Of a DNA stretch of 55,948 nt, positions 34,961-53,351 are shown one piece after another. Where the stretch lies: positions 1 through 55,948 of IMG/VR virus record IMGVR_UViG_3300010885_035166; one strand, written 5' to 3'. The translations under genes and the position numbers were made by a program. Each line of letters opens with the position of its first letter. The first letter of the stretch is position 1. The DNA is from a virus. Below the pieces are notes generated by a model. That model did no database searches. It was not told the DNA's origin and saw nothing but the letters and a program-made list of their open reading frames with translations.

Positions 34961-36616
34961 TTAATCTAATATTTCTTTATACACATTCATTATGTTAGTA
35001 ACAACATTATTAGCATTATATTTATCAATATCATTAGGAACAGCATGGAATGTTTTATCCATTATGTTTCCTTCATTATCAACATTGTATATCCACCCAC
35101 CCTTTCCACATAACCATCCTTCAATAGTGGTACGACCAAGAAGTATACCAGCTGTTTCGTCACATTGATGAATATATTTCTCAACATTTAGTGTTGGTGT
35201 GTAATATTTTACATGGTCTTGATTAATCATTGCATCATCTAAATATGTATTATTTTTTTTACCAACAATCCATAATTCTTGATTATTTTCTTTGGTAACA
35301 TTTATTAAATCTAAAATAGTTTGTTTTCTTAAATAATCAATTGTACCAACAAAAAGAATTCTTTTCTTTTCACGTTTCTGTGTTAAATTAATTGGCTTAA
35401 ACCTATCACAATCAATTGGATTGTAAATCACATCAACAATATTTTCAGGTATACCAAAACGATTAACAATATAATCTTTTATTTCAGGTCTTATCGCAAT
35501 GTATTTTTTAATTTGCGAATTAATAACTGGATTTTCAAGTGAAATTACTTCTGAATGAATACTACAAACGGTTGGTACCTCAGGATAAAGTCTTAATAAA
35601 TGCTCAGTTACTGGTGTATGGTTAAGATGCAAAACATCAAAATTAACATCAGACAATTTATACAGCGTATTTGGTTGTGATAAAACTTCAGTCTGTGCAT
35701 TCTTAAGTTTCCAGATGCCGTCACCTAATTTAAAACTTGGTGGTTCTTGCAATGTAAATAATTTAATACCACAACGTTTAGCCATACTTGATAATGGCTC
35801 ACCAAAATTTGAACAAATTGTTACATCACAGTTTTGTTTAACTAAAGATTTAGCTAATTCAAAAACATAAAGTTCAGAACCAGTAAAATTAGTAAAATTT
35901 AAACATCCAATTAAAACCTTTAACCTTTCATTTTTGCGTAAAACTTTTTTTATTTTAATTGGTAACTTATCCTCAAATTTTTTACTAAAAATTGCTCGAT
36001 TTTTTTCCCATTCTTCATTTGTCATACCGATAGACATATGATTAATCCTAATAACTGTTGACACACCAATTTTGGTTCCATTTAAATAATTTTCAAAACA
36101 AAAAGTAACGTCGTAGAAATGAAATCCCTCAACAGTTTCATTAAATGGTATCGTTGCCTTAGTTTTATCAATTGCAAAAAATACTCCGTCAACAACTACC
36201 ACTTCTTCAAGTTCTTTATCTAAATCTTCACTATATGATGATAACCATGATTTACCTTCATGCGTATGTTTAACACGACCATACATTTTTCTTTTATCTT
36301 CCCACCATTTACCAGTATTAGCCATGTATTTAGTGCCAGCAACACCAATAATTCCATATTCTGGATTCATATTAAATTGTTTTATCAATTTATTAGCCCA
36401 ATTATTGGTTTCAATTAAAATATCCGAATGACAGAACACGACATGTTGATATATTGATTTATTAAGAATTTCATTATAACATTCTGTTAAAGACCTATTA
36501 CCAGTATTAACAATTTCAATTATTTGTATTTTTTTAGGGTCCAATCCACATGTTTTAATTAAGTGTTTACTATGATTTTCATTACTAACCCTAGTACAAT
36601 AGCCTATTGTTATCAT
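34961..36616 (-). CDS. Two-domain glycosyltransferase (GT-A + GT-B)
   Basis: A 551-residue protein. Residues 1-215 are GT-A-like (TIGYCTRVSNENHSKHLIKT; HVVFCHSDILIETNNW with an HSDI acidic site; VVVVDGVFFAIDKTK). Residues about 228-551 are a GT-B family 4-like domain: NFTNFTGSELYVFELAKSL for acceptor binding, KRILFVGTIDYLRKQTILDL for the linker strand, and TAGILLGRTTIEGWLCGKGG at the donor site. Two transferases in one chain could add consecutive sugars. No membrane part. Confidence 0.82.
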   Translation of the reverse strand: MITIGYCTRVSNENHSKHLIKTCGLDPKKIQIIEIVNTGNRSLTECYNEILNKSIYQHVVFCHSDILIETNNWANKLIKQFNMNPEYGIIGVAGTKYMANTGKWWEDKRKMYGRVKHTHEGKSWLSSYSEDLDKELEEVVVVDGVFFAIDKTKATIPFNETVEGFHFYDVTFCFENYLNGTKIGVSTVIRINHMSIGMTNEEWEKNRAIFSKKFEDKLPIKIKKVLRKNERLKVLIGCLNFTNFTGSELYVFELAKSLVKQNCDVTICSNFGEPLSSMAKRCGIKLFTLQEPPSFKLGDGIWKLKNAQTEVLSQPNTLYKLSDVNFDVLHLNHTPVTEHLLRLYPEVPTVCSIHSEVISLENPVINSQIKKYIAIRPEIKDYIVNRFGIPENIVDVIYNPIDCDRFKPINLTQKREKKRILFVGTIDYLRKQTILDLINVTKENNQELWIVGKKNNTYLDDAMINQDHVKYYTPTLNVEKYIHQCDETAGILLGRTTIEGWLCGKGGWIYNVDNEGNIMDKTFHAVPNDIDKYNANNVVTNIMNVYKEILD

Positions 36617-37808: not shown

Positions 37809-38381
37809 TTAAAAAAACAACTCTGTTGTGTTTGATATATTGTCATCTAATTGTTCAATATATTTAAATGGTGTTTTAATTTTATTTAATTTAGGTTTGT
37901 CTAATATAAATTGTTGTTGTTTTAGATTTAAAATATCGTCTTTTACTTGAATGTCAATTAATTCATTAAGTGTTAACGATTTTTTATCTTTTATTGCTTC
38001 ATTATGAATATCGGTAATTTCTGGGTCATAAAATATTGAAGCTTTTACATATAGTTTTTTTTTATTTGACTCAATTGCGTTTTGTGATAATTGATGCGTA
38101 ATGAATTTTTGATATTCTTCATCTGTCATTTTAATTCTTGGCTTACCATTTTTGGTATGAATATCACCTAACCTAATTCTTTCAATATTTTCAATCTCTG
38201 CTTTAATTTTATCAGGATGAACACCAAATTGTGCAATAAAATCATGTCGAATATATTTGTCATATTTTATTTTTTTCTGTTTTTCACAAAAATCGTAATA
38301 TGGTTTTTTAAATAATCTAAAAATAAAATTTGAAATTTTAATTTTTAATTTTTTGTAACGGCTTAGTTTAAATTCTTTCAT
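37809..38381 (-). CDS. Unknown basic protein
   Basis: A 190-residue, lysine- and isoleucine-rich helical protein with no recognised domain. The N-terminal part (EFKLSRYKKLKIKISNFIFR) is strongly basic and amphipathic. It overlaps the end of the intein-bearing glycosyltransferase gene by four bases. Possible membrane or nucleic-acid association is only suggested by composition. Confidence 0.55.
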   Translation of the reverse strand: MKEFKLSRYKKLKIKISNFIFRLFKKPYYDFCEKQKKIKYDKYIRHDFIAQFGVHPDKIKAEIENIERIRLGDIHTKNGKPRIKMTDEEYQKFITHQLSQNAIESNKKKLYVKASIFYDPEITDIHNEAIKDKKSLTLNELIDIQVKDDILNLKQQQFILDKPKLNKIKTPFKYIEQLDDNISNTTELFF

Positions 38382-41300
38382 TTGTTTAATAATTTTAAGT
38401 AAAGATTTCTTCTATCTTCGGTTATTTTATCTATTGAATATGTATCTTTAACAGTATTGTGTAGATTTTCGCTTAATTGACTGATAAGTTCTGGTGTTTC
38501 TATAACTTTTTTAATGAATTTATACCAATCTTTATGGTTTTTATTCTCGTCAATTAATATACCATTACCATTTGAATCCCAACCACCACCAAATTGGTAT
38601 GCATTGTTAATATCAATTTGATAAGGGCCAAAGTTTTGTGCAATTATGGCTTTTTTATGAAAACCAGCTTCAATTACTTTTAATTGACTATTATGATTTT
38701 TAATCCCATTAGCATTATATTCGTGAACATTTTCGACTTCAATATCGTATACTGTATTTTTAGTATATTCTACATTTGTAATTTTATCTTTTAAAATTAT
38801 TTTTTTCTCGTTATTACTATGTTCACCACTTACAAATATTAATAATTTTTCTTTTTTATGTGCTGACACAAAACCTATTTCTTTTTCAAATATTTCAGAA
38901 TTAAGTCTACTTAAAATTATATTATAATAATATTTTCTATATGTTTTGTTATACGTATGTGATATTTTACCTTTAATGCCAAAACCTAATAATAATATCT
39001 GTACCTGTTGTATTAATTTTAAATCTTTACTAGTCAAACTAATTGGACCATATTCACCTACCGTTCCATCAGCTTCAAATAAACCCTTTAAAAATTCACG
39101 AATTACTGATTTAGGTGATTCTAAAATAACCTTAGGTATTCTAAATGTTTTACCATGTAAACCACACCAGTTATATTTTTTAGCTATCGATGTGAAGTTA
39201 ATACAACTAGATTTTATAGATACACCAAAACCTTCTTTACTCAAATTATTAACACAACGTTTGTCTGGTGTTTTATCGTAAATTAAAGGATTCAAACCAA
39301 TAGATTTATATAACGAAACAATATCATTAACCACATCGATGTGTCTTTTATCGCAGGCGATTTCAATACCAGATTTACCATTATAATGTCCATCACCTAG
39401 CATATAACCTAATAATCTACCCCAATTTTCATTAATTCTAATTCTGGGTAACATATTTTCATCAGCGTTATCTATTTTTTCTTGTGTTATGTTTTTGGTC
39501 AATAACATAGGATAAGTTATTTCTTGATATTTATTTTGTAGAAATAATGGTTTTGTTAATTCTATCTCATCATCTATTTTTAAGTCTTTAAGTTCTACCC
39601 ACTCATCATTTATAAAAATTTTATGATGTGGTGTACCTTCAATATTGAAACCATCTTTAGTTGTAATTTTAATGGTATCAACATTTTCATATTTAAAATC
39701 ATTAATTACTTTATTTGTTACACCGTTTAATTCTGTTTTTAACCTTAAATGATTATCAACAATATCCGAAATGTGTTTAAAGCCATCATCGGTTGAGATT
39801 AATGAATCACCTACAATACATTTTACCTTATTAAAAATATTATTTTCTAATGGTGCTAATGAAACATCAAACATATTATAATTTGACGCATATGTGCTAA
39901 TTGGTTTTGTCCATACTCTTCTATATGGTTCATTAGAAACATTTGTATATTCTTCTTGTTTAAATTTTAATAAAAAATTTTTATATTCAGGACTTACGGT
40001 CGAATAATTATCGGTAAATATTTTTTCATATTGATACCATACGCTTTCATGTGGTTTTATTGGTCGTTGAGTTTGGGTGCCAGTACTTTCATCAATCATT
40101 GTCATTGTACCTCTAAGGTCATAACCACATAATACAAATTGTACCTTATCAATTAACCCATCATTTTTAATTCTACCAACAACGCCATCTAATATTTCAA
40201 GGTCTTTTAAATGGGAATTACCAATCCACATCGCTTTACCATTTCTTCTAACATAGATAACATGGTTTTGCACTTCAACACAGTAAACATTACCCTTATA
40301 ATACTTATTATATTGATTTTCTGTTCTAATCAATGGAGTATTTTTATTGTGTTTGCTAAGGGTCGGATGTTTGGTAAAATTAATAACCAATGAATCATAT
40401 TGATTTACTATTTCCCTACCCTTGATATTGCTGCTTTGTTTACCTTTATTGGTAACCGTCGCTGAAATACCTATTTTTAATGCAATCTCTTGTAAATCAT
40501 TCGCTAAAGATGGTGAGCAAGTAAATGCTCTGGTTCTGTTATATTTATTATTTTCTATATGACCATCACCCTTTATAAACCAATTTAAAAATAAACTTAA
40601 TTGTCTAGATGATAAGTTTAATATTTCTCTGGGTATAAATTTATCGTAAGCGTTTCCAAAGTTAGATAAATACTCCCACAATTGTTTGTCAAAAACTCTT
40701 ACTTGTTTTTTATCTTTGGTATATTTTGGATTAAAACCCATTTCAACCAATAAGTTGTACATATAATCTAAATACCCATTATTTTTTATTTGTGCAATAC
40801 CTACTTGATGTAAACCCCTTGTTTTACTGGTCCAACCTTCAGCCATCCAAAAACCAAAAAATTCTAACCAATTATCCATATTAATGTATTTATCCGAGCC
40901 GTATTTTTCAGATAAACCATTGTAACGTTTTTTAGATATTAACCTATCGATTATGGATACTTCTTTTTCTAGATTCATGTATTCATTCAACATGGGTAAA
41001 ACAAAATATTCTTCCTCGCTTCCTACCCACAATGCATCTTTTTTAACATGAAAGTTTTGGCCATGTATTTTTTCAGATTGAATTAACTCTAAGTTTAATT
41101 TTTTGTGTGTCAAAGATTTGGCAACAGAAGCGTACATATTATGATTTGGTGTAACCTCATATTCAACTAAACCATTTTTAGCACAATTTAATTCACCATC
41201 AAATGGTTCACATATATAACCAGTTGGTTTGTGATACTCTAATTGATTTGTATTTGAATTTAATGTTGCAACGGTTTCGGTTTGGTCTAGCTCGTCAAAA

Positions 41301-41875
41301 CGTTTCCACCCCTCATTTGTTAAAATCTCGGTATCTGGGGTCATGCAACTACCTCCTAACCATCCAATTCTAACCCTATCACTTGTTTCTGGATTTGGTA
41401 TGTATTGTTTTTCGGTTGGGTCAATTGCATTGGGTAAAACATAAACGTTTTTATTTGCGTTACGAATTTCATCGGCAAATACCTTTGTTGTAGTTGTAAT
41501 ATTTCTAGCCGTCCTAATATTGTTTAAAATTAGTTTATCTAAACCACTATTTTTAATTAAAAGATATGCTGGATGATGCTGACCTGGTGACCAATAATCA
41601 TCTAAATCCATAATTGTGACAATACCTAATTTATCTAAACGATTTAATAATTCCGCAAGATTTTCGTATGTTCCCATATTTCTATGGTAGTGAATTATGT
41701 CATATTGTTTAAGCCATTCATCATTATCTAATTCTGGCTCATAATCAATATGAACCACAAATTCTTCAGGATATTTTTGTTCTAACGCTATGTGCGGTTT
41801 TGTCGAACGAAAATAGCTAACTCCAGTACGGTCACTAGGTATAACTAATACTTGTATTTTATTGTTTTTTTTCAT
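38378..41875 (-). CDS. GT-B (family 4-like) glycosyltransferase with two inteins
   Basis: A 1165-residue precursor. Three extein pieces (1-176, 554-685, 1063-1165) form a 411-residue glycosyltransferase: IDYEPELDNDEWLKQYDIIH, then IMDLDDYWSPGQHHP, RIGWLGGS/HLKDLEIL, and NKVK/SQLKVIEAGFHKKAII, the last two being the conserved sugar-donor region of the family. Two self-splicing inteins of 377 residues each (177-553 and 686-1062) cut exactly in those two motifs. Each begins with Cys, ends in Asn, and is followed by Ser in the extein. Removal restores an uninterrupted transferase, which would otherwise be inactive. It starts at ATG 41875 after a consensus promoter. Presumably transfers a hexose in the phage glycan pathway; substrate unknown. 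Confidence 0.9.
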   Translation of the reverse strand: MKKNNKIQVLVIPSDRTGVSYFRSTKPHIALEQKYPEEFVVHIDYEPELDNDEWLKQYDIIHYHRNMGTYENLAELLNRLDKLGIVTIMDLDDYWSPGQHHPAYLLIKNSGLDKLILNNIRTARNITTTTKVFADEIRNANKNVYVLPNAIDPTEKQYIPNPETSDRVRIGWLGGSCMTPDTEILTNEGWKRFDELDQTETVATLNSNTNQLEYHKPTGYICEPFDGELNCAKNGLVEYEVTPNHNMYASVAKSLTHKKLNLELIQSEKIHGQNFHVKKDALWVGSEEEYFVLPMLNEYMNLEKEVSIIDRLISKKRYNGLSEKYGSDKYINMDNWLEFFGFWMAEGWTSKTRGLHQVGIAQIKNNGYLDYMYNLLVEMGFNPKYTKDKKQVRVFDKQLWEYLSNFGNAYDKFIPREILNLSSRQLSLFLNWFIKGDGHIENNKYNRTRAFTCSPSLANDLQEIALKIGISATVTNKGKQSSNIKGREIVNQYDSLVINFTKHPTLSKHNKNTPLIRTENQYNKYYKGNVYCVEVQNHVIYVRRNGKAMWIGNSHLKDLEILDGVVGRIKNDGLIDKVQFVLCGYDLRGTMTMIDESTGTQTQRPIKPHESVWYQYEKIFTDNYSTVSPEYKNFLLKFKQEEYTNVSNEPYRRVWTKPISTYASNYNMFDVSLAPLENNIFNKVKCIVGDSLISTDDGFKHISDIVDNHLRLKTELNGVTNKVINDFKYENVDTIKITTKDGFNIEGTPHHKIFINDEWVELKDLKIDDEIELTKPLFLQNKYQEITYPMLLTKNITQEKIDNADENMLPRIRINENWGRLLGYMLGDGHYNGKSGIEIACDKRHIDVVNDIVSLYKSIGLNPLIYDKTPDKRCVNNLSKEGFGVSIKSSCINFTSIAKKYNWCGLHGKTFRIPKVILESPKSVIREFLKGLFEADGTVGEYGPISLTSKDLKLIQQVQILLLGFGIKGKISHTYNKTYRKYYYNIILSRLNSEIFEKEIGFVSAHKKEKLLIFVSGEHSNNEKKIILKDKITNVEYTKNTVYDIEVENVHEYNANGIKNHNSQLKVIEAGFHKKAIIAQNFGPYQIDINNAYQFGGGWDSNGNGILIDENKNHKDWYKFIKKVIETPELISQLSENLHNTVKDTYSIDKITEDRRNLYLKLLNK
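38690..39820 (-). other. Intein 2 with LAGLIDADG endonuclease
   Basis: Precursor residues 686-1062. Block A is CIVGDSLISTDDGFKHISDI, block B is GTPHHKIFI (747 on), block F/G is VYDIEVENVHEYNANGIKNHN with the usual penultimate His and final Asn, then Ser. LAGLIDADG motifs are LLGYMLGDG (821-829) and FLKGLFEADG (928-937), both keeping the catalytic Asp. It sits at the K-V-K/S-Q-L-K junction of the donor-site motif. Confidence 0.92.
40217..41347 (-). other. Intein 1 with LAGLIDADG endonuclease
   Basis: Precursor residues 177-553. Block A is CMTPDTEILTNEGWKRFDEL, block B is VTPNHNMY (about 241-248), block F/G is VYCVEVQNHVIYVRRNGK-AMWIGN, ending in Gly-Asn rather than His-Asn, then Ser554. LAGLIDADG motifs are LEFFGFWMAEG (337-347) and LFLNWFIKGDG (428-438). 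Inserted in RIGWLGGS/SHLKDL. Confidence 0.92.
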
Positions 41876-45827: not shown

Positions 45828-48800
45828 ATGGCGATAAGAATACGTGAAGATAATGGTAACTCAATTTTTATTCAAGGTGGTAGTGGCGTTCCAACACATT
45901 TATCACCTAGAGGGTCATTATATATTGATAAAGATGCTGGTGTTGCATATATAAATAAAAATAATCTTGCATATTGGGCTGAACTATCAGATTCGGCAAG
46001 TGGTAGTACATTAACAGGTGCATATTTACCACTAAGTGGTGGTACGGTAACGGGTCCAACTAATTTTACAAATGGCTTATCAGCAGATACAATATCAGCA
46101 ACAACATACCTTAATTTACCGATTGATGTTAGAGTAACAGGTGGTACATTTAATGTTGGAACTGGTATTGCTACATTTACAAACAACACAGGCGGTACAT
46201 TTAATGTAAGTGGATTTATAACAAGTGGTGGGACTATAGTTGATAAATATGTTACTGGATTTACGTATAATGGTTCTAATATATTAACCATCAAACAAAA
46301 TGAAAATCTTAGCAATTTATCAGTTGTTATTAATACTATGTCAGGATTAACCATAAACGGTAGTTTATCAGCAACAACATACCTTAATCTACCTATTGAT
46401 ATACAAACTACTGGAGCCACGTATTCTAATAATACATTTTTATTTACTAATAATACTGGTGGAACGTATAGTGTTTTATTTAATACAGTAACTGGTTTAA
46501 CAATTAATGGTAATTTAAATGTTACTGGTAATACAATATTTACTACTGGGTTATCAGCAAATACAATATCAGCAACAACATATTATAATTTACCAAATTA
46601 TGTTAGTGGAACAGGAACAACAGGATATATTTCCAAGTTCATATCTGGTTCATCAATTGGAAATAGTGTAATTTATGAAACAACTGGTGGTACTGTTGGT
46701 ATAGGCACCACAACACCATCAAGAAAGTTAGATGTAAATGGAGATGCAAATATTTCACAATTATTAGTTGTAGGTACTGACATATATAGTAGTAGAGTTA
46801 TTACCAATGCTATTATACCAAATACTTTGACATACGTACCATTTTACTCAAACGCATCACCTTATGGAGAAATAATGAGGATGCAAAATGATGGCAATGT
46901 TTTAATTGGAACAAACACATCAAATGGTAATAAATTACAAGTAAGTGGAAACACAAATATAAGTGGTGGCTTAACGGCAACAACCATATCAGCTACAACA
47001 TATTATAATTTACCAAATTATTTTAATGGTAGTGGAACGACAAATTACATTCCTAAATGGACATCATCGTCAGGACTTGGAAATAGTTTGATTTATGATG
47101 ATGGTACAAATATAATGATTGGTAATACTATTACTAATGGGAATAAATTACAAGTACGTGGTACAACTTCATTAATATCTTTAACTACATCTGGGACTTC
47201 TTTAATATTAGGTAATACTTCTTTTAATTTTAATTTTAACACAAGCATTGTGCCACAAATATTAAGTTTAGCCTACGGAACAAATAATATTTTAAACATT
47301 GGATACGATGCTCCAAATGATTTAATTAGAATTTATAATGGTGGGAATATACAATTTTCTACCAATTATTTTAGTGTGGGTGGGGATGCAAATAATCCAA
47401 TTAGCAGTGCAAGAGTGAATATTGAATCTACAACTAAGGGTGTGTTATTTCCAAGAATGACAACTGTTCAGCGTAATGCAATTCTTTCAGCATCAACAGG
47501 TTTAATGGTGTATGATACTGATGTTTTATCGCTATATCAATATAATGGTTCATCTTGGCTTCCGATACGTGAAAGTATAACAGGAACAGGAACAACAGGA
47601 TATATTCCTAAGTTCATATCTGGTTCATCAATTGGAAATAGTGTAATTTATGAAACAGCAGGTGGTACTGTTGGTATAGGTACTACTACGCCTGCTTATA
47701 AATTAGATGTTTCAGGAACAGGAAGATATAACGATACATTATCTGTTATTACTACTTATAATCCTCAAATATTAGCATACACAACTGTAGGAGGAGGAGG
47801 TAAGATTATACAGGGGTATAATGGTGGATATACATTTTCTATTGATGGAGCAAATGGTGGTGGTCCAAGGTTAGGTTTAAGTTCTTCAGACTCAAATGTA
47901 TATGATTTTTTTGAACTTGGTGCGTTTGCTAATGCTAATAATTTTGCTACCAAAACAAGAAACTTTAGGATATTAAGCACTATATCATCAGTAGAAGATG
48001 TAAGATTTCAAATATTTGCTAATTCGGGAAATGTAGTTATTCAGGATGGAGGAACATTTACAGATAATGGAAATAAATTACAAGTAAGTGGAAACACAAA
48101 TATAATTGGTGGCTTAACAGCAAATACGATATCAGCAACAACATATTATAACTTACCAAATTATGTTGGTGGGACAGGAACAACGGGATATATTCCTAAG
48201 TTCATATCTGGTTCATCAATTGGAAATAGTTTGATTTATGAAACAACAGGTGGTACTGTTAATATAGGCACTACTACCCCAACTGGTCACAAATTAAATG
48301 TTCAAGGTTCGAGTAGATTTTTATCTACATTGAATATAGATAATACAAGTGCTGGTCAACAAGCTTTAATGTATTTTGGATATAGTTATGGTTTACGTTT
48401 AAAAATGGGTTATGTGACATCACTTACACCAGTATTAGAAAATAACGTACAATTTGGTCAAATTATAAGTGATGATAGTGGCAATATTAATATAGCATCA
48501 CGTTCTGATAATCCTAGTGGTTTAAGATTTTACACTACATTAAATACTACAAGTGGATATTCTGAAGCAATGCGAATTACTAATGCTGGTGATTTACTAA
48601 TAGGTACAGTATCTGAAAGTAATACAAAATTAGTGGTTAATGGTAATTTAAAAGCATTAGCAGGGTTTTCAGAAATATATAAATTAGTAATTAATCAAGA
48701 ATTATATACACCAAATATAATTTTATACCCTGATTTTAGTTTTATTTATCCAGGTGGTGGTACGGTAATGAAAATGTATGGCGATACGCATAATGTTTGG

Positions 48801-51800
48801 ATAGGTGAAAATCCATATAATACTACTGAAAAATTTACAGTTCAAGGCACTTCATCATTAAGGGGTAATGTGTATTTCCCTACAGAAGATTCATCATATT
48901 ATTTTGGTAATGATAGTGCATTTGGTATTGTTAAGAAGACGGGAACAAATGGATTTTTGGGAGTTTCAAATGGTGGAACTTTTTACATTAAACGTTCAAG
49001 TACTAGTAATATTGACGCATCAACATCAAATACATTTACAACAATATTTAGTATTAATCCTAATAATTTATTAACTCATAGTGCAAGTGCTACTTTTGGA
49101 GCAAGTGATAATACATTCTTAAAGTTAAATGATGAGATAGGATTTATTAAAAAAGTAGGGGGTGGACCTATTTTAGCTGTTAATAATTATAGAGATATAA
49201 TATTTGCACAATCTAATTCAGGTTTTATAACATCCGCTGATACGTATAATACTTTTCTTACAATTAAATCATCTACAGGAAATGTAGGAATTGGAACGCC
49301 AACACCCACTACAAAATTAGAAGTAAATGGAGACACAAAAATAAGTGGCGGATTAACAGCAAGTACGATTAGTGCAACAACATATTATAATTTACCAAAT
49401 ACAACATTTACTGGTGGAACGGTAACTGGACCAACTAGATTCACAAATGGTTTAACAGCAACAACCATATCAGCAACAACATATTATAATTTACCAAATT
49501 ATTTTGGTGGAACAGGAACAACAGGATATATTCCTAAGTTCATATCTGGTTCATCAATTGGGGATAGTAGAATATATGATAATGGAACAAATGTAATTAT
49601 TGGTGGAGCATCACCAATACTTGCTGATGACGCTCTTAGTGTATATGGTAACACAAGAGTGCAAAATTTTGTTGCTGAAAATTCTTTATATTCAAGGACT
49701 AATTTTTTCATGCTTGGTGGTTCTGCACAATTAGGCACAGGTACTAATACAGGTGAACGATTGCAAGTTTTTGGGGATGCAAGGATAGGTGGTATAAGTT
49801 ATGCTGGTTCATCTATAATTATATATGGACAAGATGATGTATTATTGCCAATTGAGGCTGGTTTAAAAATTAGTTATAATAATAGTTCAAATGTTGGTAC
49901 TATTCAATCAGGTAAAAAAGCAGTATCAGGATATACATTAAGTTTAGGTGGTAACCCTTTAATTTTTTTTAATAGCAACAGCGGTGTTGATTCAGGTAGA
50001 TTTAGTGAATCAGGTAATTTACTAATAGGTACAAAAATAGACAATGGTAATAAATTACAAGTAAGTGGAAACACAAAAATAAGTGGTGGCTTAACAGCAA
50101 ATACAATATCAGCAAATAGTGTAAATATAGGTGTTATAATTACAAATTACCCTGATACAACGTTATATTCAAAAAATACTGGTTCTACAACTTCAAATTT
50201 ATCATTTTTTACCGATAATTTTAATAGAGCTTTGGTTACCCCTGGTGGAGTACCAAGTGTAATTTATACCACTGTAGGTATTTCACAAATTGGTCCAACT
50301 GGTTTAAATACAAATGCTTTAGGGTTAACGCAAGCATCAACATATAATATCTTATATTCTAGATACCCTGCTTTTCCCGTAAATAATTATAATACTCAAT
50401 TAAATAGTAATAGCACTATATTACAATGGGCTGTTAATGTTAGACAATCTTTAAATGGTTCTGTTTCAGGTTTTGGTACTGGACAAGTTGGACAAGCTGT
50501 TGTATTAGCGTGTAATAACCCTAACCCATCAAGTAGTGGTTCAAATGGGTATGCTTTGGTATTTGGTAATTTAAGTACAAATCAGTGGAGTCTTGTATAT
50601 TTTACCAATGGTTTAAATAACAATGGTAATATAACCAACTTAATTTCTTCAACCAATCTGGGTGGTGATAATAGATGTTATTATAGTTTAAGAGTTACAT
50701 ATAACCCATCTACAAATGTTTGGACTCTTTATAATAGGGTTGATGGTTGCGTTTCTTCTACTACACTTTGGGGTGACCCATTAACTGTTGCTACTTTGGT
50801 TGGTTCAGCAACAAGTAATACTTATACATCAATACCATTACCATATTTTGCCTTTGTTTACAACGCATCAACAGGTAATGGATATTTTGATAATTTTAGT
50901 TTACTTAATTTAAACAGTATTACATTTTCGGATTCTGTAAGGGTTGAGGATGGTAATTTTAATCAGATAAATGCACATACAATATTACAAAATTTAACAT
51001 CTCTTAATGCGTCTAATGATGCGGCAGCTGCATTGTTGAATGTTCCATTATATGGCCTTTATAGAAATGGAAATAATATTAAGGTTAGGGTTGGTAATTT
51101 TACTGATGATGTTTATTTTACTGGTGGTACAGTAAGTGGTGCAACTGTATTCACAGCTGGTTTAACAGCTACTACAATAAGTGCTTCAACAATATCGACA
51201 CCAAGTTTTAAAGCAAATTCAAATGGGTTAACGGCAACAACCATATCAGCAACAACATATTTAAATCTACCAAATTATGTTGGTGGGACAGGAACAACAG
51301 GGTATATTCCCAAGTTCATATCTGGCTCATCGCTTGGGAATAGTGTAATTTATGAAACAACAGGTGGTACTGTTGGTATAGGCACAACAACACCTTCACA
51401 AAAATTAGGTGTTAATGGTAGTATTATAGCATCAGCATACATAATTGCTGGAAATGATGTATTTGCTTCTGGTTTGCGTGGAAATTATATTTCTCCTAAT
51501 ACACTAACGTACATTCCATTTATATCTAGTCAATCTCCTTATGGAGAAATAATGAGGGTGCAAAATAATGGTAATGTTTTAATTGGAACTATATCTGATA
51601 ATTTATATAAATTAGATGTTAATGGGGCCACAAGAATAAAACAACTTTTAACGGTAGAATTTCCTAGTATAGTAGACAATACTTCATTATTTAATATAAA
51701 AAGTGGTGTGGATGGTACTAATAATATATTTGATGTACAATATTATAAAGATGCCGCATTGCTTAAAATAGGATATGCTGGAAATAATTTTAATCGAATT

Positions 51801-53351
51801 GAATTAAATGGTGGTGCAGATAATATAGCACCCACAATTAATTTATATGAAAGCGGTATTACTAATACATCTATATCCGCAAGTAAATTTAATTATTCTT
51901 ATTTTAACGGTACACTATTAATTGGTACCAATACGTATAACTATAATGGGGATAAATTACAAGTTAGTGGTAATACAAATATACGTGGTGGATTAACGGC
52001 AAGTACAATATCGGCAACAACATATTTGAATTTACCTAGTTCAACATTTAGTGGTGGTACAATAAATGGTGCAACTAATTTTACAAATGGGTTAACTGCT
52101 AATACAATATCAAAATCTGGGGGGACGTCTTTACAATATCTTATGGCAGATGGTTCTACTTCTGTAATTCCAAATTCAACGAGTGGTTATAATTCAAATG
52201 TTAACCCAGTAACATATGCTTTACAAGATGCTCCAATATTATACCATTCTTTAGCGTGGTTTACGCCTGCTGGTACAATATCTACTACTGGTATAAGTGT
52301 TTCGACAACAATTGGACAATTTGCTTCAACAATGATTGGTGCTAAATTAACTATTAATGGTGAATGGAGAATAATAACAGCATATACAAATACTACAAAT
52401 GTAAGTGTTGCTAGTTCCTACTCACAGAATTATAGTGGAATAGCTGGTGCAAATTTTGGTGTTTATAATAAATATTTTGCAAATGTTGACACTAATAAGA
52501 CGAATGTTGTTTATGATTATCAAAATAATATTAAAACTTATTTTGATGTTAACGGTAATTTTGTTAGCAATTCACTATATAACATTTTTCAAAATATAAA
52601 CGCAACAGCTTTTTTTGCTTTTGGTACAAATGCTGGTATGAGATTTTCACCACAAAATAATGATAGTTTAACAGATGTTAGATTAAAAAGATTAACTTCT
52701 GGAATATTACAAATTGATGATGGTACAACCGACACAAATTATAGGGATTTAATACTTAGAAATTTAACTGGTACAACATTAACAACAACTGGCTTAACGG
52801 CAAGTACAATATCAGCAACAACATATTTGAATTTACCTAGTTCAATATTTACTGGTGGAACCGTAACTGGCCCAACTAGATTCACGAATGGGTTAACCGC
52901 TAATACGATATCAGCTACAACGTATTTAAATGTACCTAGTTCAACATTTTCAGGTGGTACAGTAACTGGACCAACTAATTTTACGAATGGCTTAACGGCC
53001 AATACAATTAGTATTGTACCTAAATTTGTTTCACAAGCAACATATACCGCAACTACTAGTGATTATATTATTTTGGGTGATGTAACGGTAGTTGCTAATA
53101 TATATTTACCACCAGCTAGTAGTTGTACCAATAAAATTTATGAATTTGGTTGGTATAATTATCAAAATGAAGTATTTAGTGGGGAATATTATATCGTTCC
53201 ATCAGCTGGTGACACTTTTGATACCCCACAATCTATTAGTTCTTTACCATGTCTTTTTGACAATAATTTTAGAATGACAACTAAAATTATTTCAAATGGT
53301 GTTAAATGGCATATTTTACAATCGAATACATTAGGAATGACATTACCATAA
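45828..53351 (+). CDS. Giant repetitive tail fibre protein
   Basis: A 2507-residue protein beginning AIRIREDNGNSIFIQGGSGV, a phage fibre N-terminal pattern. The rest is a mosaic of repeated modules: GLTANTISATTYYNLPN (about 14 variants), GTGTTGYIPKFISGSSIGNS (five close copies and one diverged), GGTVGIGTTTPSRKLDVNG and GNKLQVSGNTNISGG, separated by single-copy stretches. The VGIGT-x-P-x-KLDVNG motif is widespread in bacterial and phage beta-helical fibres. A single-copy region at residues 1460-1720 (FTDNFNRALVTPGG on; genomic about 50206-50990) looks like a jelly-roll or LamG-type binding domain. No S74 domain at the end. Its job is probably receptor binding; it starts three bases after the S74 gene. 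Confidence 0.85.
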   Translation: MAIRIREDNGNSIFIQGGSGVPTHLSPRGSLYIDKDAGVAYINKNNLAYWAELSDSASGSTLTGAYLPLSGGTVTGPTNFTNGLSADTISATTYLNLPIDVRVTGGTFNVGTGIATFTNNTGGTFNVSGFITSGGTIVDKYVTGFTYNGSNILTIKQNENLSNLSVVINTMSGLTINGSLSATTYLNLPIDIQTTGATYSNNTFLFTNNTGGTYSVLFNTVTGLTINGNLNVTGNTIFTTGLSANTISATTYYNLPNYVSGTGTTGYISKFISGSSIGNSVIYETTGGTVGIGTTTPSRKLDVNGDANISQLLVVGTDIYSSRVITNAIIPNTLTYVPFYSNASPYGEIMRMQNDGNVLIGTNTSNGNKLQVSGNTNISGGLTATTISATTYYNLPNYFNGSGTTNYIPKWTSSSGLGNSLIYDDGTNIMIGNTITNGNKLQVRGTTSLISLTTSGTSLILGNTSFNFNFNTSIVPQILSLAYGTNNILNIGYDAPNDLIRIYNGGNIQFSTNYFSVGGDANNPISSARVNIESTTKGVLFPRMTTVQRNAILSASTGLMVYDTDVLSLYQYNGSSWLPIRESITGTGTTGYIPKFISGSSIGNSVIYETAGGTVGIGTTTPAYKLDVSGTGRYNDTLSVITTYNPQILAYTTVGGGGKIIQGYNGGYTFSIDGANGGGPRLGLSSSDSNVYDFFELGAFANANNFATKTRNFRILSTISSVEDVRFQIFANSGNVVIQDGGTFTDNGNKLQVSGNTNIIGGLTANTISATTYYNLPNYVGGTGTTGYIPKFISGSSIGNSLIYETTGGTVNIGTTTPTGHKLNVQGSSRFLSTLNIDNTSAGQQALMYFGYSYGLRLKMGYVTSLTPVLENNVQFGQIISDDSGNINIASRSDNPSGLRFYTTLNTTSGYSEAMRITNAGDLLIGTVSESNTKLVVNGNLKALAGFSEIYKLVINQELYTPNIILYPDFSFIYPGGGTVMKMYGDTHNVWIGENPYNTTEKFTVQGTSSLRGNVYFPTEDSSYYFGNDSAFGIVKKTGTNGFLGVSNGGTFYIKRSSTSNIDASTSNTFTTIFSINPNNLLTHSASATFGASDNTFLKLNDEIGFIKKVGGGPILAVNNYRDIIFAQSNSGFITSADTYNTFLTIKSSTGNVGIGTPTPTTKLEVNGDTKISGGLTASTISATTYYNLPNTTFTGGTVTGPTRFTNGLTATTISATTYYNLPNYFGGTGTTGYIPKFISGSSIGDSRIYDNGTNVIIGGASPILADDALSVYGNTRVQNFVAENSLYSRTNFFMLGGSAQLGTGTNTGERLQVFGDARIGGISYAGSSIIIYGQDDVLLPIEAGLKISYNNSSNVGTIQSGKKAVSGYTLSLGGNPLIFFNSNSGVDSGRFSESGNLLIGTKIDNGNKLQVSGNTKISGGLTANTISANSVNIGVIITNYPDTTLYSKNTGSTTSNLSFFTDNFNRALVTPGGVPSVIYTTVGISQIGPTGLNTNALGLTQASTYNILYSRYPAFPVNNYNTQLNSNSTILQWAVNVRQSLNGSVSGFGTGQVGQAVVLACNNPNPSSSGSNGYALVFGNLSTNQWSLVYFTNGLNNNGNITNLISSTNLGGDNRCYYSLRVTYNPSTNVWTLYNRVDGCVSSTTLWGDPLTVATLVGSATSNTYTSIPLPYFAFVYNASTGNGYFDNFSLLNLNSITFSDSVRVEDGNFNQINAHTILQNLTSLNASNDAAAALLNVPLYGLYRNGNNIKVRVGNFTDDVYFTGGTVSGATVFTAGLTATTISASTISTPSFKANSNGLTATTISATTYLNLPNYVGGTGTTGYIPKFISGSSLGNSVIYETTGGTVGIGTTTPSQKLGVNGSIIASAYIIAGNDVFASGLRGNYISPNTLTYIPFISSQSPYGEIMRVQNNGNVLIGTISDNLYKLDVNGATRIKQLLTVEFPSIVDNTSLFNIKSGVDGTNNIFDVQYYKDAALLKIGYAGNNFNRIELNGGADNIAPTINLYESGITNTSISASKFNYSYFNGTLLIGTNTYNYNGDKLQVSGNTNIRGGLTASTISATTYLNLPSSTFSGGTINGATNFTNGLTANTISKSGGTSLQYLMADGSTSVIPNSTSGYNSNVNPVTYALQDAPILYHSLAWFTPAGTISTTGISVSTTIGQFASTMIGAKLTINGEWRIITAYTNTTNVSVASSYSQNYSGIAGANFGVYNKYFANVDTNKTNVVYDYQNNIKTYFDVNGNFVSNSLYNIFQNINATAFFAFGTNAGMRFSPQNNDSLTDVRLKRLTSGILQIDDGTTDTNYRDLILRNLTGTTLTTTGLTASTISATTYLNLPSSIFTGGTVTGPTRFTNGLTANTISATTYLNVPSSTFSGGTVTGPTNFTNGLTANTISIVPKFVSQATYTATTSDYIILGDVTVVANIYLPPASSCTNKIYEFGWYNYQNEVFSGEYYIVPSAGDTFDTPQSISSLPCLFDNNFRMTTKIISNGVKWHILQSNTLGMTLP
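46602..51390 (+). repeat. Dispersed long direct repeats inside the fibre gene
   Basis: A stretch of about 100 bases containing ttcatatctggttcatcaat recurs with few changes starting near 46602, 47577, 48160, 49499 and 51272. A shorter repeat encoding ISATTYYNLPN precedes most copies. The high nucleotide identity, not only amino-acid identity, points to recent duplication or ongoing recombination. Confidence 0.88.

Follow-up and report, generated by a model that had tools for sequence, protein, structure and literature searches.

The window, the whole 55,948-nucleotide (nt) stretch of viral DNA analysed here (IMG/VR record IMGVR_UViG_3300010885_035166, positions 1 to 55,948), carries an open reading frame (ORF) that very probably encodes one GT4-type phage glycosyltransferase into which two homing inteins, unrelated to each other, have inserted, each at its own invariant motif. 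The gene is also likely to be a homing hotspot, with an independent element for each of three invariant active-site loops: the two inteins and, in relatives, an endonuclease cassette whose added 5' coding end forms a hairpin and is followed by a 2-10 nt stop-hop. The cassettes, with their 26 versions and cured scars, would form a natural, mobile stop-hop family and, after T4 gene 60 itself, the second phage lineage to show this phenomenon.

The ORF is open over all 1165 amino acids (aa), with zero internal stops, and its strand and coordinates, 38378-41875 (-), are those given in an initial annotation made from the letters alone. Taking aa 177-553 and aa 686-1062 out of the precursor leaves a 411-aa protein, which matches the PHROG 'glycosyltransferase' family with an E-value of 1.5e-37 vs. 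1.3e-25 for the interrupted form. The model of the enzyme of the relative L002 (predicted local distance difference test, pLDDT, of 90) has a GT-B fold with two Rossmann domains. Its best matches among solved structures are the GT4 enzymes GlgM, PglA, BshA and MshA, and T4 alpha-glucosyltransferase is also among the matches. The Pfam GT4 match to the window enzyme is below the cut-off. In the alignment of relatives, the second Glu of the E-x7-E motif (E312) is invariant, and the first position is not Glu. Judged by its sequence, the host gene codes for a single 411-residue phage glycosyltransferase of the GT4 type and GT-B fold, with a predicted transferase activity; the PHROG match and the nearest folds bear out the earlier assignment to a family 4-type transferase. 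A search of 50,697 isolate phage records returned only relatives with identities of about 35% or lower, hence no cultured model, and the search of a genome collection gave just three matches, all of them metagenome-assembled genomes.

With the spliced protein, 209 relatives were found in IMG/VR, of which the best 80, 52-80% identical, were fetched. Both sites are uninterrupted in 80 of these 80 (GGSSH and KSQLK, e.g., RIGWLGGSSHLKDLE and ENIFNKVKSQLKVIE), and the empty sites read GWLGGS^SHLKDL (site 1) and FNKVK^SQLK (site 2). The initial annotation had predicted the second correctly as NKVKSQLK; for the first it had given GGSHLKDL, and the actual sequence, GGSSHLKDL, contains one Ser more. 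In L002-L005 the DNA around the gene is syntenic with the window at about 70% identity, and the alignment halts at window positions 41348/40213 and 39821/38693, i.e., at the intein edges, and then resumes in register. The two stretches have next to no probability of being ordinary domains of some larger transferase, given that neither site is occupied in any of the 80 nearest homologs and that the stretches themselves match inteins. In the L002 model, site 1 is located in the loop after strand 165-170, where the columns L170 G171 G172 S173 S174 H175 are invariant, and site 2 directly before helix 308-315, where K305 S306 Q307 L308 K309 are invariant. The earlier description of the targets as conserved donor-site motifs is therefore right as to conservation; as to donor binding, we assume from general knowledge of GT-B enzymes that both loops bind the sugar-nucleotide donor.

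The two inserts are each 377 aa long and, as had been noticed from the letters, strongly different, with a mutual identity of about 19% (BLASTP E 0.01). Intein 1 possesses blocks A, B (TPNH), F and G and two LAGLIDADG motifs, together with Cys1, a C-terminal Asn and Ser+1. Intein 2 has the same set, with TPHH in block B, and its penultimate His is present. Both LAGLIDADG motifs claimed for each intein are found, and Pfam detects a LAGLIDADG_3 domain in either one. The Pfam Intein_splicing score of intein 2 is 51.1 bits, over the cut-off of 35.8, and this intein is also above the TIGR intein N-terminal cut-off. The acidic residues D251 of intein 2 and D261 of intein 1 are conserved across alleles, and E170 of intein 1 is replaced by Asp in L089. 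By predicted fold and profile, intein 1 matches the intein/homing endonucleases TliVMA, PI-PkoII and PI-SceI; intein 2 also matches inteins by predicted fold.

A search for the same insertion sites in other phages found them filled. Site 1 is filled by intein 1 alone in L082-L088, intein 2 occurs alone in L090 and L275/L276, and both sites are filled in L089, whose site-1 allele is just 46-53% identical to the others. The many empty-site relatives, together with the same sites filled elsewhere, support the earlier proposal that the gene serves as a homing target carried by many relatives. In about 30 contigs a relative of intein 1 is inserted in the corresponding loop of a glycosyltransferase, the identity of the host with the window going down to 21-43%, and other relatives of intein 1 interrupt nrdD, a DNA methylase and further genes; intein 2 is seen in few relatives. 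Pfam glycosyltransferase domains were confirmed in the intein-bearing L214, L216, L218, L229 and L231. The insertion points IGQW^TERKN (L231) and KESG^TLPLLHAMA (L229), as placed by motif position, suggest that both donor-site motifs are targeted in other GT4 enzymes too. A separate observation concerns a SpoVR-like protein (L278:275-4396), which has two splicing-domain stretches and four LAGLIDADG stretches and so apparently contains a pair of inteins, distant kin of intein 2.

Inteins turned out to be more alike than their hosts: intein 1 of L082 and L083 is 84% identical vs. 65% for the exteins, intein 2 of the window and L090 is 61% identical vs. 45% for the extein, and for L207 the values are 67% and 43%. 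The extein tree places a filled gene as sister to an empty one in the pairs L084/L007 (support 100/99) and L086/L033 (99/96), as well as in L207/L070, L201/L049 and L089/L025. Taken together, these two lines of evidence argue that both inteins are mobile homing inteins, their movement between hosts being seen indirectly, by host incongruence. The intein tree was given no further use because few of its branches are firmly supported. The ratio of nonsynonymous to synonymous substitution rates (dN/dS) is mostly 0.08-0.27 between similar intein alleles, which, at the level of sequence comparison, shows purifying selection acting on the inteins.

Some observations weigh against two intact homing inteins. 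The Pfam Intein_splicing score of intein 1 is 18 bits, under the cut-off, its penultimate residue is Gly instead of the usual His, its model is of low confidence (pLDDT 59) and served for fold-level matching only, and the divergent site-1 allele of L089 has a higher dN/dS, 0.38-0.59. The statement of the initial annotation that both inteins have complete splice blocks thus holds for intein 2 and needs a caveat for intein 1, whose penultimate His is the only splice residue lost on re-reading. The Gly-Asn C-terminus and the sub-threshold splicing domain would fit an intein 1 that no longer splices, so that the enzyme is inactive or split and the endonuclease function alone persists. We consider this highly improbable, given that Gly-Asn is common to all site-1 alleles and to most of the more distant relatives in other genes, that dN/dS is mostly about 0.1-0.2 in the conserved blocks A, B, F and G, and that the flanking extein is intact; furthermore, splicing has been reported for an intein that lacks a penultimate His (Chen 2000, as cited in PMC4031507). 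It also seems quite improbable that the inteins are switches holding the transferase off until some condition triggers splicing. Both sit in active-site loops, so the precursor would be inactive, and functional inteins exist as a general idea in the literature (PMC5784728); however, their sporadic occurrence among close relatives and their intact endonuclease motifs fit a selfish element rather than a fixed switch.

We therefore retain two homing inteins as the preferred explanation. Each would splice out by an N-S acyl shift at Cys1, transfer to Ser+1 and Asn cyclisation, which would restore the enzyme. The two-motif LAGLIDADG endonuclease of each would cut intein-free copies of the motif in co-infecting relatives, and repair of the cut copy would install the intein. 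The targeted motifs are presumably conserved active-site loops, where the target would stay present and loss would be costly. The same reasoning also applies to the third element at the 5' end of the gene in relatives.

In several relatives the glycosyltransferase is interrupted early: after the conserved SDRTGV come one codon for Ser or Gly and then a stop, and the enzyme resumes with S/G-Y-F-R-S, frequently in a different frame. The site of this third element, SDRTGV^[S/G]YFRS, lies at the 5' end of the gene, and the element is missing from the window. A pattern scan and an endonuclease search gave 26 distinct cassette versions (L084, L085, L086, L096, L017, L048, L082, L100, L105, L111, L112, L121, L125-L142 and others); the pattern matches L106 and L109 are chance and not cassettes. 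The order is a strong hairpin ending at an AGY/GGY codon, the stop (TGA or TAA), 2-10 nt, and a matching codon, after which the enzyme continues. The hop lengths are 2, 3, 4, 5, 6 and 10 nt, and the frame changes in 9 of the 26 versions. Take-off and landing codons have their first two bases in common in 25 of 26 (AGY to AGN or GGY to GGN), the exception being L121 (AGT to GGC), and the third base is off in L098, L112 and L133. Landing Ser codons are AGY in 7/7 cassettes vs. 8/30 uninterrupted relatives, and landing Gly codons are GGY in 15/17 vs. 22/43, a test weakened by shared ancestry, so that Fisher values overstate the independence of the cassettes.

The pre-stop segment keeps its protein sequence, with a ratio of nonsynonymous to synonymous differences (pN/pS) of 0.32 over 16 codons vs. 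0.89 in the preceding 9 codons. It forms a long hairpin with its base at or beside the take-off codon and a predicted free energy (dG) of -25 to -33; none of 5200 synonymous recodings is as stable (z -4 to -7), and the median dG is -27 in cassettes vs. -5.4 in uninterrupted relatives. Over the eight basal pairs, 112 of 120 pairs form with the sequence's own partner arm, compared with a permutation mean of 99 and 0/10000 permutations reaching the observed value; the register was set by the predicted fold of each sequence itself, a choice that gives pairing some advantage. Together, the recodings and the permutations indicate selection on the 5' stem-loop. The MAFFT cassette alignment was left out of the pair counting because it does not bring the 5' arms into register.

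Many cassette versions have a NUMOD3/EDxHD-like homing endonuclease immediately upstream, and in four of the versions examined (L084, L086, L119, L122) the original gene start still precedes it. Members of this endonuclease family (L113-L191, e.g., L084:3556-4455) are directly upstream of the glycosyltransferase gene in nearly all loci examined. L144, L147 and L151 have the endonuclease beside the gene without the stop. In L038/L067, L040 and L031 the extra 5' coding arm is kept and the stop is absent, and these look like cured or reverted cassettes. The cassette co-occurs with intein 1 in L082, L084-L088, L096/L197 and L100/L201, and with intein 2 in L092/L275 and L101/L276.

Altogether, the third element looks like a cassette for ribosome bypass of the T4 gene 60 type in which the hops are very short, and we think it probable that ribosomes make one polypeptide across the cassette stop by a short hop. 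Other explanations were rejected. Stop-codon readthrough or a reassigned code fails because 9/26 versions have a gap length not divisible by three and because both TGA and TAA occur, and an intron fails because a gap of 2-10 nt is too short. A pseudogene beside an intact second copy was dismissed, as no second copy of this glycosyltransferase was found in any of the 20 records searched. Assembly error was discarded in view of identical versions recurring across metagenomes (e.g., L096/L099/L107 and L086/L087/L088).

The two inteins extend the hosts of phage inteins to sugar transferases and point to GT4 donor-site loops as recurrent homing targets. We find the wider result weightier, that one non-replication phage gene attracts three kinds of gene-interrupting element, each of which would preserve the product differently. 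If confirmed, the third element would be, to our knowledge, the first natural series of short stop-hops, and the T4 gene 60 model, with its 5' stem-loop motor, matched codons and endonuclease-driven spread, could be tested by natural comparison.

Table 1. Features of the interrupted glycosyltransferase gene, in positions of the window.
Feature	Description	Position	Strand	Length
Precursor ORF	whole glycosyltransferase + two inteins	38378..41875	(-)	1165 aa
N-extein	aa 1-176, N-terminal GT-B domain to GWLGGS	41348..41875	(-)	
Third target site	T-G-V^S-Y-F-R-S; empty in the window, filled in relatives by homing-endonuclease / putative stop-hop cassette	41804..41827	(-)	
Intein 1	aa 177-553, class-1-like, LAGLIDADG endonuclease; Cys1 ... 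Gly-Asn, Ser+1	40217..41347	(-)	377 aa
Intein 1, first LAGLIDADG motif	LEFFGFWMAEGW, acidic residue E170	40832..40867	(-)	
Intein 1, second LAGLIDADG motif	LSLFLNWFIKGDG, acidic residue D261	40562..40600	(-)	
Intein 1, C-terminal splice blocks F + G	VYCVEVQNHVIYVRRNGKAMWIGN	40217..40288	(-)	
Middle extein	SHLKDL ... FNKVK	39821..40216	(-)	
Intein 2	aa 686-1062, class-1-like, LAGLIDADG endonuclease; Cys1 ... His-Asn, Ser+1	38690..39820	(-)	377 aa
Intein 2, first LAGLIDADG motif	WGRLLGYMLGDG, D143	39389..39424	(-)	
Intein 2, second LAGLIDADG motif	FLKGLFEADG, D251	39065..39094	(-)	
Intein 2, C-terminal splice blocks F + G	VYDIEVENVHEYNANGIKNHN	38690..38752	(-)	
C-extein	SQLKVIEAG ... stop, end of GT-B C-terminal domain	38378..38689	(-)	

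Several neighbouring loci deserve mention. Between an HD-domain gene and the transferase lies a 190-aa ORF with no Pfam match (37809-38381), which looks like an insertion in the window because L002-L005 are about 520 bp shorter over the syntenic stretch. A second transferase nearby (34961-36616) is a fusion of GT2-like and GT4-like parts, and because of its closeness there may be a glycosylation gene cluster around the glycosyltransferase. A 2507-aa ORF (45828-53351) adjoins a tail-fibre/S74 chaperone ORF; it has internal repeats, since 46015-46106 and 51122-51191 match one and the same place in relatives.

Among known systems, the phage LAGLIDADG class 1 inteins (e.g., Prevotella phage Lak-A1, the thymidylate synthase of Corynebacterium phage P1201, the terminase of crAss-like cr56_1) resemble those of the window in their Hint blocks around a two-motif LAGLIDADG endonuclease, Cys1 and Ser/Thr+1, with 25-30% full-length identity. 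The window differs from them in its glycosyltransferase host, in two allelic sites in one gene, and in that intein 1 belongs to a Gly-Asn-ending group. Chitin synthase is a GT2 enzyme. Fungal chitin synthase inteins (PMC5784728) likewise interrupt a glycosyltransferase-type enzyme, but there the gene is eukaryotic and nuclear and of another glycosyltransferase family, whereas here GT4/GT-B enzymes of phages are involved. Replication and nucleotide enzymes predominate in published intein surveys. Proteins of replication, recombination or repair make up more than 60% of the intein hosts of prokaryotes (PMC5784728), and because of this and of the chitin synthase case a sugar-transferase host is uncommon, though with precedent. 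The initial annotation was thus right, against published surveys, to call such a host unusual, but it is not unique, given chitin synthase and the viral contigs described above, whose GT4-like enzyme carries an intein. Another phage gene with two inteins is the crAss-like phage TerL (PMC7886860); that gene serves packaging and its inteins are of the Hint-Hop type, whereas here the host is a sugar transferase and both are LAGLIDADG.

The third element of the relatives shares with the T4 gene 60 / mobA bypass cassette (PMC3014915, PMC5009743, PMC11194080) an inserted endonuclease gene, a 5' stem-loop, a take-off codon followed by a stop, and a matched landing codon. A 2016 review knew no natural in-frame stop-hop (PMC5009743). 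The hop of T4 gene 60 is 50 nt, its stop is TAG and its endonuclease is HNH, whereas the relatives' element has putative hops of 2-10 nt, TGA or TAA stops and a NUMOD3/EDxHD-type endonuclease. Unlike T4 gene 60, the element is known here from sequence and occurs, in the glycosyltransferase, in 26 distinct versions.

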